From positions 3,022,036-3,086,035 of the forward strand of contig NC_019683.1 of NCBI RefSeq assembly GCF_000316605.1: a stretch of 64,000 nt of DNA. Reading direction: 5' to 3'. Positions within the stretch are counted from its first letter, which is position 1, and every line of letters starts with the position of its first letter. The notes below the pieces were generated by a model. The model ran no database searches. It was given only the letters and a program-made list of their open reading frames with translations, and had not been told where the DNA came from. Shown piece by piece: positions 35,647 through 43,241 of this stretch. Position numbers and translations under genes: made by a program. This DNA comes from [Leptolyngbya] sp. PCC 7376 (GTDB lineage Bacteria > Cyanobacteriota > Cyanobacteriia > Cyanobacteriales > MRBY01).

Positions 35647-35832
35647 CTAAGCGACAGAGAAGAACTGATAGGAGCTGGACTGTAAGTTCGCGTAATCTGC
35701 TAACTCCAAATCCTCTTGGAAAATGGTGTCGATCGCCAACATTCGACCATCAGCAGTGAGGAATTTATGGTCTGGTGTCGCTCGAATAATCCCGCCATTA
35801 TCGAGTTGGTACTCAAACATCTGGCGATCGCC
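35647..35832 (-). pseudogene. Orphan duplicate of the DnaE split-intein N-part tail
   Basis: The minus strand encodes 61 residues in frame, starting [21 protein letters not shown] and ending with a stop at 35647. They align with the last 59 residues of the DnaE-N intein at 38676 ([21 protein letters not shown]), including the intein block B HKFLT. The two diverge toward their ends (ADYANLQSSSYQFFSVA against [15 protein letters not shown]). A TAG precedes the similarity, so it cannot be translated as part of dnaE. It begins exactly at a HIP1 octamer. It is either the displaced original tail or a decayed duplicate. Confidence 0.85.
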
Positions 35833-35889
35833 CTACATCAAATAGGGATGAGTATCATATGAAATCAGAGAAAATTATAGTCAGGGCTA

Positions 35890-36521
35890 ATGGTTACAAC
35901 GCTTATACCGATTCATGAACAGCGGGTACTTTTGTGGGGGGTCAGTTGGTCTACCTATCAGGCTCTAGTGTGGGATCTCGCGGAAAACCGAACAAGCGTT
36001 TAACCTACGATAATAAATGGCTAGAGATTATGACCCTTTTACCAGAGCATGAGGCAAATAAGCGGTTATTAGGGCAGATTGTCGAGGCAACAACGGAAGA
36101 ATTAGGGTTAGAGATATATAGTTTGGGTTCGACGACTTGGGGTCGGGAGGATTTGCAGGGAGGTTTCGAACCGGATGAATGTTATTACATTACTTCTGAG
36201 GCGCAGGTTCGGGGCAAAACTCACATCGATCTGATGAGAGATCCACCGCCTGATTTAGCAATTGAGATTGATACCACCAGTAGTTCGCTAGATCGATTAG
36301 CAATTTACGCGAGCTTGGGCATTACAGAAGTCTGGCGTTTTGATGGTAAGAGACTGACAATTTATGTTTTAGAGAATGAAGGATATCAAATTCAAACTCA
36401 ATCAAAAGTATTACCAATCCTCAATCGATCTAAACTCTTAGAACTTTTGGGGAGACGTAACCAGCAAGGAGAAAATTCATTAATTCGAGAATTGCGTAAT
36501 TGGCTTAATCGAAAGATATAG
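35890..36521 (+). pseudogene. Uma2 family (DUF820) endonuclease-like gene, frameshifted
   Basis: From ATG 35890 the frame reads MVTTLIPIHEQRVLLWGVSWSTYQ...AENRTS, then hits a stop. Insertion of one base after about 35997 (AGC|GTTTAACC) rejoins it to RLTYDNKWLEIMTLLPEHEANKRL, continuing to 36521. The core has the family's PD-(D/E)XK-like pattern (GFEPDECYYI, PPPDLAIEIDTTSSS, IYASLGITEVWRFDGK). Uma2 genes are extremely numerous in cyanobacteria and of unclear function. About 210 residues if repaired. Broken as written. Confidence 0.82.
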
Positions 36522-36584: not shown

Positions 36585-37511
36585 ATGGGTGAATGGTCAA
36601 AAAAAGTTGGTGAACGGGGAGAGGAAATTGTCCGTGCATTTCTTCGTCATCTAGGCTGGAATAATTGCCAAGAGAATATTGAACTGACGTGCTTAAGAAA
36701 AACAATACATAAAGCAGAAACTCATGGAATAGATTTATTATTTTCTTATCCATCTCCTTTGATTGATGATACCCTTGACAACTTGATAGTATCAGTCAAA
36801 TACACGGCTAACGGCTATCCAACTTCCCCAAACAGTACATTCAAGTCTCATTTTTATGATCTTTCGAAGACTATTGAGTGCTTTAAAAGATCTTCTATTA
36901 GAGAATCTCTTATTCGCAATTTTCAAGTTCAAAACATATCTAATACGAGGGATATCGGAGTTCTTTTTTGGCTAAGCAATGATAGTACGGAAGACAATAA
37001 TGACTTAATATCAAAAATTTGTAATGCACGTGAATTAACGAAATACAACTTTGACACAACATATGTCGTTGATAACCTCAAGGCTGAATTTATACGTGAA
37101 GTAAAGTCTTTTCTAGAATCACAGTATTCAAATGAAAAAATAGAGTTTTTCTATCAAAATACGGGCAAAAACTTTAACTATACTAGCCGTCGGGTTTCTG
37201 GAAACACTTTGCCAGTTGAATGTGTTAATTCTAATATACTTTTATTTCGCATTACATATACAGAAAATAATACGCAGATTCTTGTGCTGACAATACTGGA
37301 CAAGTTTAGTTCTAAGAATTTAAAACGAATGATGGGTCTTGCCCTAGAAATAGGGCAAGGGTTGACAGCAAAAACATTGATTTTATTCCCTGACTATGAT
37401 CCTTTACTACATTCCAATCAAGTAAATGAGGTCAAGCTTAGCTTTGTAGATCAAAGTTTCACAAATTTTCTTGAAGTCAAATCGTATAAACAAAATCTGA
37501 GAAATATATAA
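36585..37511 (+). CDS. PD-(D/E)XK nuclease-like protein, first gene of a two-gene cassette
   Basis: 308 residues. The N-terminal 80 residues carry a plausible restriction-endonuclease-like active site: GERGEEIV (E13/E14), HGIDLLFSYPSPL (D50) and LIVSVKYTANG (K72), in the order E...D...xxK. The rest (about 85-300) is mixed alpha/beta with no motif I can name. The gene ends 3 bp before its partner. The block is AT-rich (18 of 60 bases are G+C at 37981-38040 in the partner) and has no HIP1 site, unlike the flanks, so it looks acquired. It may correspond to the nuclease component of a GAPS4-type two-gene anti-phage system; this is a family guess from memory and needs a profile search. Confidence 0.6.
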   Translation: MGEWSKKVGERGEEIVRAFLRHLGWNNCQENIELTCLRKTIHKAETHGIDLLFSYPSPLIDDTLDNLIVSVKYTANGYPTSPNSTFKSHFYDLSKTIECFKRSSIRESLIRNFQVQNISNTRDIGVLFWLSNDSTEDNNDLISKICNARELTKYNFDTTYVVDNLKAEFIREVKSFLESQYSNEKIEFFYQNTGKNFNYTSRRVSGNTLPVECVNSNILLFRITYTENNTQILVLTILDKFSSKNLKRMMGLALEIGQGLTAKTLILFPDYDPLLHSNQVNEVKLSFVDQSFTNFLEVKSYKQNLRNI

Positions 37512-37514
37512 ATC

Positions 37515-38648
37515 ATGAATGAACAGCCTCCTAATCTTGATCAAATGCTTCCATTTGGAGAAAAGCTGCGTGAACTCATGGTTCAATCTTATGTCAGTCG
37601 TGGAGACTTAAATAATATTTTGAAAAGCAGAGGCATTTTTATTAAAAATACAGAAAAGAGAGATACGATACCAGTCTTGTCGAGTCTTCTTCTGAGTCCT
37701 GAAGAATTTGATCAGCTATGCGATTGTCAAAATATTCGAGAAGACAATCCAAAAATAATCACACAAAGTATCGCTTTTTCAAGTAATGAGTCATTAATAG
37801 ACTGTATACCAGAAACTTTCAGTCTTCATGATTGTTTGGATTTAGAATATGCCCCATATAGAGTTAAGGGAGAACCAAAATTCATCCCTGTTCAAGATAA
37901 TTTAGATCACATTAAAATGAACTTTCAAGTTGAGAGAACAGATTTATCAAAAAGCTGGGCAAATGAGAAAAAAGTTTTTTCGGGCTCTTTGGAAATAAAA
38001 AAAAATGAGGTTGATGAAAATATTCAGATTCTAATAACACATCATCACACTTCTCAAGAGACTAAGGTGATCAGTTCAAAAATATCACGAATTCTAATAA
38101 AAGAATTTAAGGAAGATGGACATATTGACGATCAAAAAAGTTTAGAGAAAATATTATTTTCTTCATTCTCGAATGAAAATAGAATTGCATACTTACTGGA
38201 TATTACAAAGAATCTAGATTCTCCTATGCTCGACTTTTTAGGGATTGTTGATTTGGGAATTTCTCCAGATCCCAAGGTTGAGCTATCACGGGATTTAAAC
38301 TGGATTCAATCTGAAATCAAAAAAATGAAATTAAATGGAGAGAATCTTCATAAAACTTTTTTTGTTTCCAGAAAAGACAATCATAAGTGTCTCGAAATAT
38401 ATCAATTAGATGCTCGATTTAAAATGTTAGATATCAAAGGAATTTCTGGGGAATGTGTTATTTCATTTCTTTTTAGAGACTTTCAAAAGAAGCAAGACAG
38501 AGAATCTGAGTTAGAAGTAGATGTCACCCGGATTTCTTCTGTTTCTCCCTTAAGAGGAATTAGTCAGAACGAGTTGAGAGGTTTTATTTTAAGAGAAATT
38601 GAGCAGAAAAAAATGACTTTATTCGAGAAATACAGAAGCAATAAATAG
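37515..38648 (+). CDS. Large partner protein of the two-gene cassette (GapS4b-like?)
   Basis: 377 residues, soluble. The N terminus (MLPFGEKLRELMVQSYVSRGDLNNILKSRGIF) looks like a helical recognition or oligomerisation module; LLSPEEFDQLCDCQNIREDNPKI follows. The middle and C-terminal parts are beta-rich then helical (RILIKEFKEDGHIDD, ISQNELRGFILREIEQ) with no catalytic motif visible. It is co-directional with the nuclease-like gene, 3 bp apart, so translation is probably coupled. The length and N-terminal pattern remind me of GapS4b, but this is unverified. Its stop lies 27 bp from the convergent dnaE-N stop. Confidence 0.55.
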   Translation: MNEQPPNLDQMLPFGEKLRELMVQSYVSRGDLNNILKSRGIFIKNTEKRDTIPVLSSLLLSPEEFDQLCDCQNIREDNPKIITQSIAFSSNESLIDCIPETFSLHDCLDLEYAPYRVKGEPKFIPVQDNLDHIKMNFQVERTDLSKSWANEKKVFSGSLEIKKNEVDENIQILITHHHTSQETKVISSKISRILIKEFKEDGHIDDQKSLEKILFSSFSNENRIAYLLDITKNLDSPMLDFLGIVDLGISPDPKVELSRDLNWIQSEIKKMKLNGENLHKTFFVSRKDNHKCLEIYQLDARFKMLDIKGISGECVISFLFRDFQKKQDRESELEVDVTRISSVSPLRGISQNELRGFILREIEQKKMTLFEKYRSNK

Positions 38649-38675: not shown

Positions 38676-39005
38676 CTAAGCAACTAATTGGGAACTGGGT
38701 AAATCCGCAGGGGCAAACTCAGCGAGGTTTAAACCCTTTTCAAAGATCTCATCGATCGCCACCATCTCCCCTTCTGTCGTCAGGAATTTATGATCTGGTG
38801 TCGCTCGAATAACCCCACCATTATCGAGTTGGTATTCGAACATCTGGCGATCGCCCCTTTGATGCCACTGTTCAACAGGTTGGGTATAAACAAACCCATT
38901 CTCATCAATACTGTAAACACTGCAAAGTAATTCTTTCTCCACAATCTCTCGAATGGGCAACACACCATATTCAACTGTCACAATGGGCGTTTCACCATCG
39001 AGGCA
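38676..39005 (-). other. DnaE split intein, N-terminal part
   Basis: It codes for residues 782-890 of the dnaE-N product. Catalytic Cys1 follows KFAEY. Block A is [14 protein letters not shown] and block B is ATPDHKFLT with the conserved His. There is no homing endonuclease. Known relatives are the Ssp and Npu DnaE split inteins. Confidence 0.93.
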
Positions 39006-41348
39006 ATACTCCGCAAACTTCACCATTTGATCAAACAGATCCTTTGAAACTTCCTGAGGTACACCATTTTTTGCCGCACCATCAATAAATTTCACCTCAT
39101 GCTTTTTCATTTCGGCGATTTTCTTTTTACCCATCGCTCGGCGCAATAGATCCGCTTCCCCAAGGGAATAGCCCGCCAAATCCTGCGCCATTTTCATGAT
39201 TTGCTCTTGGTAAACGAGCACGCCATAGGTTTCTTTGAGAATGGGACGGAGCAGTTCATGTTGATACCGAATTTCTTCGCGGCCATGCTTACGGTCGATA
39301 AAAATAGGGATCAGACCAGCATCTAGTGGGCCCGGACGGTAGAGCGCCAAAATAGACGAAATATCCTCAATGCCCGAAGGCTTCAGATCTTGCACAATCT
39401 TTTTCATACCATCGGACTCTAGCTGGAAAATTCCTGCCAGTTGGCCTTCTTCAAACAGACCATGGGTATTTTTGATATCTGGGGGTAGTTTTTTCGCTGT
39501 ACCCTTCGCCAAAATTTCTAAAGCTCTCCGTTCATCGAGAGGCAACTGATCTAGATCTAATTCGACATCGCGATGTTTTTGGACGAGGTCAGCAGTTTTC
39601 TGAATGGTGGTGAGGTTACGCAGCCCCAAAAAGTCCATCTTGAGGAGGCCCATCGCCTCCACATCTTCCATGTAGTACTGCGTGATCACAGCACCCTCAT
39701 TGTTGCGCTGCAATGGCACAGCTTCATCGAGGGGATCAGAGGAAATTACGACTCCGGCAGCGTGTACACCAAAGGTTTTATTGGTTCCTTCAATACGGAT
39801 CGCCATATCCAGCCAACGTCGCACACCCGGATCGGTATCATAACGACGCTTAAATTCGGGCTCTGGTGTGTCGTCCGAGATCATTACCTTAAGCTTGGCG
39901 GGCTTACCTCTGGCAACAGGAATCATTTTTGCCATTTCATCGGATTCGGCATAGGGAATATCCAGCACCCGCGCAACGTCTTTGAGCACTGCTTTCGACG
40001 TCATTTTATTAAAGGTAATAATCTGCGCTACTCGCTCTTTGCCATATTTTTCGGTGACATATTCGATCATTTCCTGTCGCCGCTCAATACAAAAATCTGT
40101 ATCAACATCAGGCATTGATTTCCGTTCGGGATTTAGGAAACGTTCAAATAATAAGGTGTGGTGAATGGGATCAATATTAGTAATACCGAGGGCATAGGCG
40201 ACAAGAGACCCCGCGGCTGAGCCACGTCCAGGGCCAACGGGAATGTTATGGTCGCGAGCATATTTGATGTAGTCCCACACCACCAAAAAATAGGTAGAGA
40301 AACCCATCCGCTGCATCATTTTCAGTTCATATTCGAGGCGTTCTTTATAGGTAGGGTCAACTTCGCCGCGAGTTTTGCATTTCATGCGCTCCTTGAGTCC
40401 TTCCCATGTCACTTCTTCGAGATAACTATCAGCAGTGTGGCCGCTAGGGATTGGATAATCGGGAATGCGGGGTTCTCCCAAAATTTTGTAAGGTTGGACT
40501 TTTTCAGCGACTTCTAGGGTGTTAGCGATCGCCTCTTCGATAACTTCGGGGTCTAGGTGATCCTGAAAGAGCATACGCATCTCTTCCGCAGATTTAATAT
40601 ATTCTGTGCCGCTATACCGTAGGCGTTTATCTTCGGTAATCAGTTTGGCAGTTTGGATGCAAAGTAGGGCATCGTGGGCTTCTACGTCGTAGCAAGAAAT
40701 GTAGTGGGAGTCATTCGTCGCGATGATTTTAATGCCAAGCTTGCGGGCAATTTTGACGATCGCCACATTAACAATGCGGTCTTCCTGGGAGCCATGGTCT
40801 TGGATTTCGAGGTAATAGTCATCACCCAATAAATCTTTGTACCATTTAGCCACATCCAACGCTCTCTGATATTCGCCCTTAAGGATGCACTGAGGCACTT
40901 CACCGCCAAGGCAAGCACTAGTCATAATTAGACCTTCATGGTGCTTTTCGATCAGTTCTTTGTTGATACAGGGACGCGCGAAAATCCCTCGGCCTTGGTA
41001 ACCCTCAAGGTGAGAAATCGTGGTGAGTTTAACGAGATTTTTGTAGCCTTGAGTATTTTTGGCGAGGACAACTTGATGATATTTTTTGTGGCGTTTTAAT
41101 TTACCGTTGCTCTGCATTTTGTCGTGGATGTCTGCATTAATCACATACATCTCATTGCCAATAATCGGCTTGATACCCTTGCCACGACAGGTTTTCAGTA
41201 GTTCAATTGCGCCATACATAACGCCATGATCCGTCAGGGCGATCGCTGGCATATTCAGTTCTTGGGCACGCTTAACGAGAGGCTTAATCTGGGACGCGCC
41301 ATCAAGGAGAGAATAATCGCTGTGAATATGCAGACCGACAAAGGACAT
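38676..41348 (-). CDS. dnaE: DNA polymerase III alpha subunit N-terminal half with split-intein N part
   Basis: 890 residues. The PHP domain starts [16 protein letters not shown]; polymerase motifs include [18 protein letters not shown] and [12 protein letters not shown] (catalytic Asp pair), and [12 protein letters not shown]. The extein ends KFAEY at residue 781. Cys782 begins an intein N-part ([18 protein letters not shown], block B TPDHKFLT) that runs to the C terminus, 109 residues. As in other cyanobacteria, the C half with the intein C-part must be encoded elsewhere; trans-splicing then makes the full replicative polymerase subunit. Both ends of the gene are duplicated nearby (35647-35832 and 42777-42964). 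Confidence 0.96.
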
Positions 41349-41425: not shown

Positions 41426-41733
41426 GTGAAAAAAAACAGGTCTTACGCAACCTAGTGTTCTGTTCCTTAAGTGATCAATATCCAACAAATGCAATGTTTT
41501 ATGATGACCCCGTATTTGAGCCAACAGTCGAACGAAATGGCCAAAGTACAATTTTAGACTTTTCTTAGAATTTATCTTGGCAAAGATACAATTTTCACGG
41601 CATCTTTAATGTTCTCCGGGAAATTACGGAATTAAAGTATTTAAAATTGTGGAATAGAAGATGGTAATTCCACTTTAGAGACTAAAAAAACACGATAACA
41701 ATTTAGTTCTCCCCCATACAGGTGCTTAACGAT
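41426..41733. other. Unassigned AT-rich spacer between dnaE-N and the Ser-repeat gene
   Basis: No gene, tRNA or repeat is recognised. A 24-codon ATG frame at 41494 (MFYDDPVFEPTVERNGQ) exists but is not supported by anything else. It presumably contains the promoter of the Ser-repeat gene. Confidence 0.4.
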
Positions 41734-42651
41734 ATGCCTAATGATTCAGAGAGAAGAGATGACCCTCAAGGTTACTTAGATCTCATCTACCTATTGATAA
41801 ACTCAAAAGTTAAGATTTCATCAAAAAAAACGTCAAACTTAACATGGAAAATCACACTTAATAATCCACAAATCAATTTCAATCTTACTCCGTTCAAGAT
41901 TACGATCAATATCGTGCAGATTGCACTTGTTAGCTTTTTTCTTGGCGGCTTTCTAGCTGTTGTTCTCAACACGAATCATTCTCTTCTACAACAGTCTGAA
42001 TCCTCTGAATCTTCTGAATCTTCTGAATCTTCTGAATCTTCTGAATCTTCTGAATCTTCTGAATCTTCTGAATCTTCTGAATCTTCTGAATCTTCTGAAT
42101 CTTCTGAATCTTCTGAATCTTCTGAATCTTCTGAATCTTCTGAGACGAGAAATCCTTTAGTGGCTCATCTAACTTACTTTGACTCCAATACCTCTATCGT
42201 TTTTGAGGCATGTTTGTTTGATGATGGTTTTTATCAACCTGAGGTTGCAGTAGCTGTCTGCGGGGAAGCCATTGCTTTCAGTGATAGCCAGAGCGATACT
42301 ATGTACAATCATCATGGCCTTTCAATCGGGAGCGTAGCAAACTTATTCGATTTCGATAGTACTTTTGAAGCAGATAATTCTTTTCAGTCTTTTATTGGAT
42401 TCTTAGGAAAAGATGTCGTCCTTGGATGGGACGACATCTTTTCCCCGACTGCCATTGTAACGACAAAACCAACTACCGTTGTCGCTAAGAAACCAACTGC
42501 CGTTGTAATGACCGAACCAACTGCTATTGTCGCGACAAAACCAACTACCGTTGTAATGACTGAACCAACTGCCGTTGTACCCACTCCAACTTTTGTTCTG
42601 CCAATTTGGCTTGGGATATTTGGATCGGCACGCCATCGCAGCAGGAGTTAG
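41734..42651 (+). CDS. Membrane protein with (Ser-Glu-Ser)16 tract and Pro-Thr repeats
   Basis: 305 residues from ATG 41734. Order: polar N terminus, one membrane helix (about 58-80, IVQIALVSFFLGGFLAVVL), a tract of 16 Ser-Glu-Ser units encoded by a nearly perfect 9-bp repeat (41995-42138), a soluble domain of about 100 residues (TYFDSNTSIVFEACLFDDGFY...), then six 8-residue PTxVV repeats encoded by 24-bp units (42445-42588). It looks like a single-pass protein with a flexible stalk. I recognise no family. It lies between two copies of the dnaE-N head and has no HIP1 site. Confidence 0.65.
   Translation: MPNDSERRDDPQGYLDLIYLLINSKVKISSKKTSNLTWKITLNNPQINFNLTPFKITINIVQIALVSFFLGGFLAVVLNTNHSLLQQSESSESSESSESSESSESSESSESSESSESSESSESSESSESSESSESSETRNPLVAHLTYFDSNTSIVFEACLFDDGFYQPEVAVAVCGEAIAFSDSQSDTMYNHHGLSIGSVANLFDFDSTFEADNSFQSFIGFLGKDVVLGWDDIFSPTAIVTTKPTTVVAKKPTAVVMTEPTAIVATKPTTVVMTEPTAVVPTPTFVLPIWLGIFGSARHRSRS
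41995..42138 (+). repeat. 9-bp tandem repeat, 16 units, in coding sequence
   Basis: Units TCTGAATCT (the first ends TCC). All units keep frame, so slippage changes protein length by three residues without frameshift. Confidence 0.97.
42406..42444. repeat. Perfect 16-bp inverted repeat inside the Ser-repeat gene
   Basis: GGAAAAGATGTCGTCC (42406-42421) and its exact complement (42429-42444) enclose 7 nt. There is no T tract, so it is not a normal terminator. It directly precedes the 24-bp repeats. Confidence 0.9.
42445..42588 (+). repeat. 24-bp imperfect tandem repeat, six units
   Basis: Encodes PTAIVTTK, PTTVVAKK, PTAVVMTE and similar octapeptides, with alternating TK and TE ends. Confidence 0.9.
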
Positions 42652-42776
42652 TTTTCTTGCCAAGATCTCTCCTTGAGAATGAAGGAACAGATAATGCTCC
42701 ATACTTCAATCTTAGTAAAGAGACATCTTTTATCAATCAGGCGATCACCTCATACAAGATCCTGAGATCCATCAAG

Positions 42777-42964
42777 GTGATCGCCGGCATATTCAGTTCT
42801 TGGGCACGCTTAACGAGAGGCTTAATCTGGGACGCGCCATCAAGGAGAGAATAATCGCTGTGGATATGCAGACCGACGAAGGACATAAAGGCTAGCCAAC
42901 TCTATATGTAGTGGGTAGTTATCATTTATAGGATAGGGATTGGCGATCACCACGCAGAATATTT
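42777..42964. repeat. Duplicate of the dnaE-N head and promoter region
   Basis: Same orientation as dnaE-N. The minus strand encodes [20 protein letters not shown]... from 42886 down to about 42777, then runs into unrelated sequence. The differences from 41239-41348 that I see in the coding part are synonymous (for example at the Phe and Ile codons). Upstream similarity continues about 75 bp. Non-functional as a gene, but it may keep promoter activity. Confidence 0.88.
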
Positions 42965-42983
42965 GATCAGAAAAACATGTCCT

Positions 42984-43241
42984 ATGCAGCTAAATTATGT
43001 CGTTCTCTATGTCGACAATCTTCAAAAGTCCTTTGAGTTTTACAGCGAACTAGGGTTTGAGTTAACAGCAGAGCAACACGGCGAAGGACCAAAGCATTAT
43101 TCTTTCCCAGTTGGCAATGTCATCTTTGAGATTTATCTAGCCAAAAATAATGCTGTTTCTCATATGCGATTGGGCATTGAAGTAGATATCAATGTGAATG
43201 GGTGGGACGGATCTTTGAGATTTTCGGGGTTAAGAAAATAA
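42984..43241 (+). pseudogene. VOC/glyoxalase-family fragment
   Basis: 85 residues from ATG 42984: LNYVVLYVDNLQKSFEFYSELGFEL, GPKHYSFPVGNVIFEIY, MRLGIEVD. This is the first half of a vicinal-oxygen-chelate fold. After GIEVDINVN the frame goes off-family and stops; a neighbouring frame continues (EWVGRIFEIFGVKKI), suggesting a frameshift, but the usual C-terminal metal-ligand motif is not found. Probably a truncated gene at the edge of the dnaE-head duplication. Confidence 0.55.

Follow-up and report, generated by a model that had tools for sequence, protein, structure and literature searches.

GAPS4 is an already published system that was reportedly first described on Gamma-Mobile-Trio islands, by Mahata et al. 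in Nature Microbiology in 2024. These islands are the place of its discovery, and residence on one is not a requirement for membership. PD-(D/E)XK effectors are also found in other anti-phage systems: HamA of Hachiman, which works with a helicase, and SduA of Shedu, which works alone. As regards DNA-binding proteins that are relevant here, one study describes a DNA-binding fold shared by lambda RexA, RdgC, IML3 and CHL4 (RexA-RdgC Dali Z 4.4), non-specific DNA binding by both RexA and RdgC, and an exclusion function of RexA for which binding to DNA is not strictly required (PMC11077077). Another study likewise describes a resemblance of Chl4/Iml3 to RdgC (PMC4080450).

Within the window analysed here, the whole 64,000-nucleotide stretch of a cyanobacterial chromosome, the ORF list holds two intact, co-directional genes spaced by 3 bp: gapS4a (36585..37511, plus strand; 308 aa), coding for the predicted PD-(D/E)XK nuclease subunit, and gapS4b (37515..38648, plus strand; 377 aa), coding for its partner and proposed DNA clamp or sensor. 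A first-pass annotation of this DNA had already recognised this layout, had guessed at a link to GAPS4 and had suggested a profile search of both proteins. That search bears out the guess, with both proteins exceeding curated NCBIfam cut-offs over their full length: GapS4a matches NF047933 at 344.4 bits (cut-off 270), residues 1-301 falling on model positions 1-302 of 302, and GapS4b matches NF047934 at 369.7 bits (cut-off 300), residues 12-370 falling on positions 1-355 of 355. We are in very little doubt that the block is a complete, intact GAPS4 pair, and as such it is a further copy of a published system, in a cyanobacterium. It resembles GAPS4 in having both subunits in the same order, with tight spacing and full-length model matches, and differs in its location on a cyanobacterial chromosome and in its sequence, GapS4a being 28-49% and GapS4b 21-48% identical to the other aligned copies (a chimera described below excluded). 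Pfam has no family name for either protein. The 2023 version of PADLOC gave no real match for the pair, its AbiEii hit to GapS4a being weak (E 0.006); a PADLOC scan of nine proteins from relatives returned one weak 'Hp1' row (E 4e-5) and a PHROGs search returned nothing useful. Searches of PDB sequences with the single proteins produced no match for GapS4a and a lone hit for GapS4b (E 0.82), and a profile comparison of GapS4a with GapS4b found the two to be unrelated to each other.

The gene pair was probably acquired laterally. Its GC content is 32.7% against 43.8% in the window, in agreement with the AT-richness noted at first pass, and lower values occur in 320 of the 61,936 sliding windows of the pair's size that fit in the 64-kb window. 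The earlier remark that the block is free of HIP1 sites holds as a count (0 in the pair) but carries little weight as an argument: 2.97 sites are expected (Poisson P ~0.05), and there are two longer HIP1-free gaps in the same 64 kb. No recombinase was recognised among the ten window proteins scanned around the pair, the genome has one copy of GapS4a, and the cassette stretch contains 12 promoter-like sites, compared with a shuffle mean of 12.1.

The right-hand neighbour of the cassette is an intact dnaE-N (38676..41348, minus strand) that carries the N-terminal part of a split intein, and the duplicated dnaE-N pieces reported earlier proved to be real. A duplicate of the 3' end, containing the split-intein N part and retaining its own stop codon (~35647..35833, minus strand; 86% over 105 bp), and a duplicate of the 5' end together with upstream DNA (~42743..42988, minus strand; 91% over 225 bp, 42766-42988) lie on opposite sides of the intact gene, the 5' copy being additional to what had previously been recorded. 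The 3' copy begins no more than 2 bp from a HIP1 site and the 5' copy ends ~12 bp past a degenerate HIP1; the breakpoints of both lie on or close to HIP1 or HIP1-like sites, which gives the impression that such sites took part in the rearrangement. When compared with the dnaE-N end of a congener (G005), the 3' copy matches at 42/59 residues and the intact end at 34/57, which weakly hints that the tail of the intact gene may be the newcomer. Gene order in this congener runs guaA, a cupin gene, psbN/psbH and then a transporter gene (psbH, psbN and the transporter being named by eye); similarity of the window to that contig ends at 35546, just past psbH, and dnaE-N lies on a different contig. The dnaE-N block, a Uma2-family gene and GAPS4 therefore sit at a rearrangement relative to the congener.

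The Uma2-family gene (35934..36521, plus strand; PF05685, E 2.3e-19), a PADLOC candidate of type PDC-S17 (PDLC04943, E 3.4e-37), is positioned between the dnaE-N 3' remnant and gapS4a, directly upstream of the pair. It was considered as a third GAPS4 component and rejected, since inspection by eye of the ORFs around the two remaining copies from cyanobacteria turned up no such gene, and is probably a separate gene outside the system. By eye, the Anabaena copy stands beside psbB and the Leptolyngbya copy between aldo/keto-reductase-type and phosphomannomutase-type genes; judged by such neighbours, GAPS4 in these cyanobacteria looks like a lone cassette and not like part of a defence island. Of the earlier suggestion that the pair might be conserved near defence genes, the first half stands, since the pair recurs, but closeness to defence genes is not general: no other known defence gene was seen by eye beside the three cyanobacterial copies, the Uma2 gene here excepted. 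The occurrence of genes for photosystem proteins nearby (psbB in one case, psbH/psbN ~1.1 kb away here) was also considered and set aside as probably due to chance.

GAPS4 is rare in cyanobacteria, GapS4a being found in 2 of the 386 cyanobacterial genomes sampled, its own included. Scans of two other phyla detected it in 6/395 genomes of the phylum of Maribellus maritimus (Maribellus maritimus and the chimera included; four over the cut-off) and in 1/397 genomes of the phylum of a MAG labelled Helicobacter cetorum, the one being that MAG itself, with 0/14 control genomes positive in each of the three phylum scans. Searching genome contigs with an alignment as query revealed nine GAPS4 loci, namely in Anabaena sp. 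UHCC 0187, Leptolyngbya sp. FACHB-60, Maribellus, Allomuricauda, Flagellimonas, Marinifilum, Silvania and MAGs labelled Thiomargarita and Helicobacter; a single-protein query against the same contigs revealed no loci. Three further loci came from viral contigs and two from plasmids, and phage records contained no match for GapS4a or GapS4b. Three E. coli genomes out of 5,426 complete ones carry the enteric form, annotated as gapS4a and gapS4b. In the one of these three that was examined (L062:8291-11350) the pair occupies a cargo position between tail-fibre assembly and tail-sheath genes, in surroundings that we take for a P2-like prophage. The copy in Marinifilum fragile (L028:8001-10058) is decayed, with interrupted frames.

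GapS4b directly follows GapS4a in 15/15 loci of the first set examined, a set in which L019 and L020 belong to one genome, L028 is the decayed copy, and L029 and L030 possibly represent a single prophage. The two adjoin in all six loci of a second set (where L053 repeats L022, and L048 is the fused chimera) and in two of the four loci of a third, the other two (L059 and L060) being weak chimera-search matches that fit neither profile and were not counted as GAPS4. Pairwise distances among GapS4a and among GapS4b proteins are correlated (Mantel r 0.93, P 0.0001, n = 12 genomes, which remained after three near-duplicates were dropped from the 15). The co-occurrence of both families elsewhere, on which the first-pass annotation had made its proposal depend, is thus seen in other cyanobacteria, Maribellus, Allomuricauda, Flagellimonas, enterics and two MAGs.

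GapS4a is very probably the nuclease effector of the pair, as predicted from its conserved residues and modelled fold. The ordered pattern of E13/E14, D50 and K72 that had been likened to a PD-(D/E)XK active site lies at the positions given, and E13, D50 and K72 are invariant, but E14 is not conserved: it is replaced (by N, K, T and N) in 4 of 15 GapS4a sequences, making E13 or E10 the likelier catalytic acid. E10, E13, D50, S70 and K72 are invariant in 15/15 aligned GapS4a (near-identical rows included, chimera excluded), with S70 occupying the motif position where an acid is usual. The conservation table omits L004, L005, L028, L030, L056 and L058, and L048, its 16th row, differs; the same residues are kept in L004 and L005 and, by eye, in L056 and L058.

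In an AlphaFold2 model of GapS4a (11-row alignment, mean pLDDT 79.5), a predicted catalytic fold spans residues ~1-214 and carries E10/E13, D50 and S70-x-K72, and residues ~163-303 form a further PD-(D/E)XK-like domain that lacks a conserved catalytic pattern. VIA-align matches fall for the most part into two sets, the N-terminal part being matched to the PD-(D/E)XK nucleases Upx (Z 9.1, residues 11-214), McrC (8.0), FokI (7.3), HamA (7.1) and SduA (6.9), and residues ~163-303 to chain E of several RNA polymerases (Z up to 8.5), EndoMS (7.1), Cap4 (6.8) and Avs3 (6.5); by the tool's own note, values near Z 7-9 are also reached by models without a clear match. The matched nucleases and this polymerase subunit (RPB5) have the PD-(D/E)XK-type fold in common. 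The same tool also gives acetyl-CoA carboxylases over the whole model, with rmsd >10, and a Foldseek search of the PDB returned nothing better than E 0.0039, for a PIWI-type protein, which is not of this nuclease class. A structure without a PD-(D/E)XK core had been named as evidence that would count against the proposal; the predicted model is compatible with such a core, the fold evidence being middling and the Z values within the common range. Likeness to HamA and SduA extends to this modelled fold (Z 7.1 and 6.9, respectively), and GapS4a differs from them in pairing with GapS4b and in having the second PD-(D/E)XK-like domain. We read this second domain as silent because the alignment shows no conserved acid-and-lysine pattern in it. 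A PDB profile search also matched GapS4a to sulfotransferases (E 0.005), which was taken as chance because the match covers only residues 170-254 and has no nuclease link.

For GapS4b, an AlphaFold2 model built from 15 rows (mean pLDDT 78.2) predicts N-terminal helices (residues 16-72) followed by two beta-sheet/helix halves, in an arrangement like that of RdgC, Iml3 and CENP-L. Among the 50 VIA-align matches listed, those in which at least 198 residues are aligned are Iml3 (Z 8.6, 198 residues), RdgC (7.8, 231; 7.0, 228) and CENP-L (7.6, 208; 7.1, 207), all with Z in the common range of the tool; the remaining matches listed cover at most 118 residues, mostly within ~76-213, and comprise phosphoglucomutase, kinase-tail and helix-grip folds. 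RexA is absent among these 50. Foldseek placed CENP-N at rank 2 (E 6.1e-4), with an ARO/CYC protein and BMAL1 ranked about as high. A Pfam-A scan of 15 GapS4b members found no RdgC-type family at E 0.1 or better, and the GapS4b profile had no match among PDB chains at E 10. GapS4b thus resembles the RdgC/RexA/Iml3-Chl4 (CENP-L/CENP-N) fold in that its predicted structure aligns over 198-231 residues with Iml3, RdgC and CENP-L, and differs in that these searches found no sequence similarity to it, and in having an extra N-terminal helical part and a nuclease partner. We consider the match to this fold suggestive, not proven, and put the model-based idea that GapS4b may be a DNA-clamp sensor at about an even chance. 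The viral protein that matched the GapS4b model most closely was a 322-residue uncharacterised Caudovirales protein (BFVD A0A6J5Q1Z2, E 2.6e-5), possibly another RdgC/RexA-like protein.

Two natural variants bear on how the subunits may work together. In the MAG labelled Helicobacter cetorum (L025:8001-10106), the a and b parts are joined in one open frame of 701 residues, the a part scoring 313 bits against its NCBIfam model (cut-off 270) and the b part 261 bits, under the cut-off of 300. The chimera (L048:8594-11281, in genome G831 of the Maribellus phylum) is a protein of 895 residues, with its match to GapS4a at 209-489 and its match to GapS4b at 528-892. Its first ~190 residues are endonuclease-like, with the PADLOC label 'Effector, Endonuclease' over residues 1-98 (E 2.9e-14), and E34, D43 and Q57-x-K59, which are kept in all four aligned sequences, are on our reading the putative catalytic residues of this front domain. 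In the GapS4a part, S70 is retained and E10, E13, D50 and K72 are changed to P, H, N and L, respectively. Judged from sequence, the protein appears to be a natural nuclease swap, in which the GapS4a active site has been lost and a foreign endonuclease-like domain placed in front; the simplest reading would be that nuclease activity matters and that another blade can supply it. The full-length chimera is present in 1/346 genomes of its order, and a search of viral contigs did not detect it; of seven plasmid records that match it, five match the N-terminal domain, two the GapS4a part and none both. The chimera stands next to an NA37 gene and to genes for an RT and a PRTase, a pair that matches type III-A retron models.

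The explanation that we favour, and hold as a whole to be likely, is that the locus is a GAPS4 cassette in which GapS4b would sense the state of phage DNA and GapS4a would cut. In this organism the two proteins would form one complex, whose two-halved, RdgC/RexA/CENP-L-like GapS4b clamp would recognise a phage-specific DNA state (free ends, or replicating or concatemeric DNA, for example), and the N-terminal PD-(D/E)XK domain of GapS4a would then cut DNA, with the silent C-terminal PD-(D/E)XK-like domain probably aiding DNA or partner binding. The target may be phage DNA only, or the host chromosome too, as in abortive infection. Both DNA as the trigger and the clamp fold are parts that we infer, and it is here that the closest rival departs: the system and the nuclease would be the same, but GapS4b would sense a phage protein or act as a structural adaptor, its RdgC-like look being a common beta-sheet arrangement. 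We regard this as a serious possibility, at somewhat below an even chance. The Z values of 7-8.6 for GapS4b in the common range, the unrelated single-domain folds that make up most of the VIA-align matches listed, and the missing sequence link between GapS4b and RdgC all speak for it. So does RexA, whose exclusion function is described as not strictly dependent on DNA binding (PMC11077077). Yet the five listed matches that span most of GapS4b all come from one published fold group. A sensor of DNA state coupled to a nuclease would, if generalised, make GAPS4 a modular clamp-plus-blade machine, with an RdgC/RexA/CENP-L-type GapS4b reading the DNA and an exchangeable nuclease, as the swap and the fusion might indicate; this is a tentative view that we place just short of even.

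Two adjacent genes for a nuclease and a partner could also be arranged as a toxin-antitoxin-like module, in which GapS4a would be a toxic DNase silenced by GapS4b and freed on infection. GapS4b is, however, larger than GapS4a, and the fused a-b and nuclease-a-b proteins favour a working complex over a releasable inhibitor, so that we find this arrangement unlikely. Still less probable is that the copy in the window is a silent fossil, retained only through having landed beside an essential gene. It does lie at a rearrangement site beside truncated dnaE-N pieces, its promoter-like sites are no more numerous than in shuffled sequence, and a decayed copy exists elsewhere, in Marinifilum fragile; against this, neither frame is interrupted or truncated, and GapS4a retains every one of the five residues invariant among relatives.

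The cassette itself widens the reach of this recently described system of defence among cyanobacteria, few of which carry a copy. Of wider use are two leads on how GAPS4 may work, a possible RdgC/RexA-type clamp sensor and an apparently swapped nuclease in evolution, which make the signal sensed by GAPS4 directly testable; if the clamp-plus-blade view were true, RexA-like clamps would be a recurrent fold in phage sensing. No published report of a clamp-type GapS4b or of a GAPS4 nuclease swap was found in a literature search that lay mostly outside subscription journals and preprints, and either may be in print; the current GAPS4 literature may also contain the mechanism. Elsewhere in the window, an ORF at 41722-42651 contains ~17 copies of a 9-bp repeat, encoding Ser-Glu-Ser runs, together with a match to a PTPA-CTERM sorting signal.
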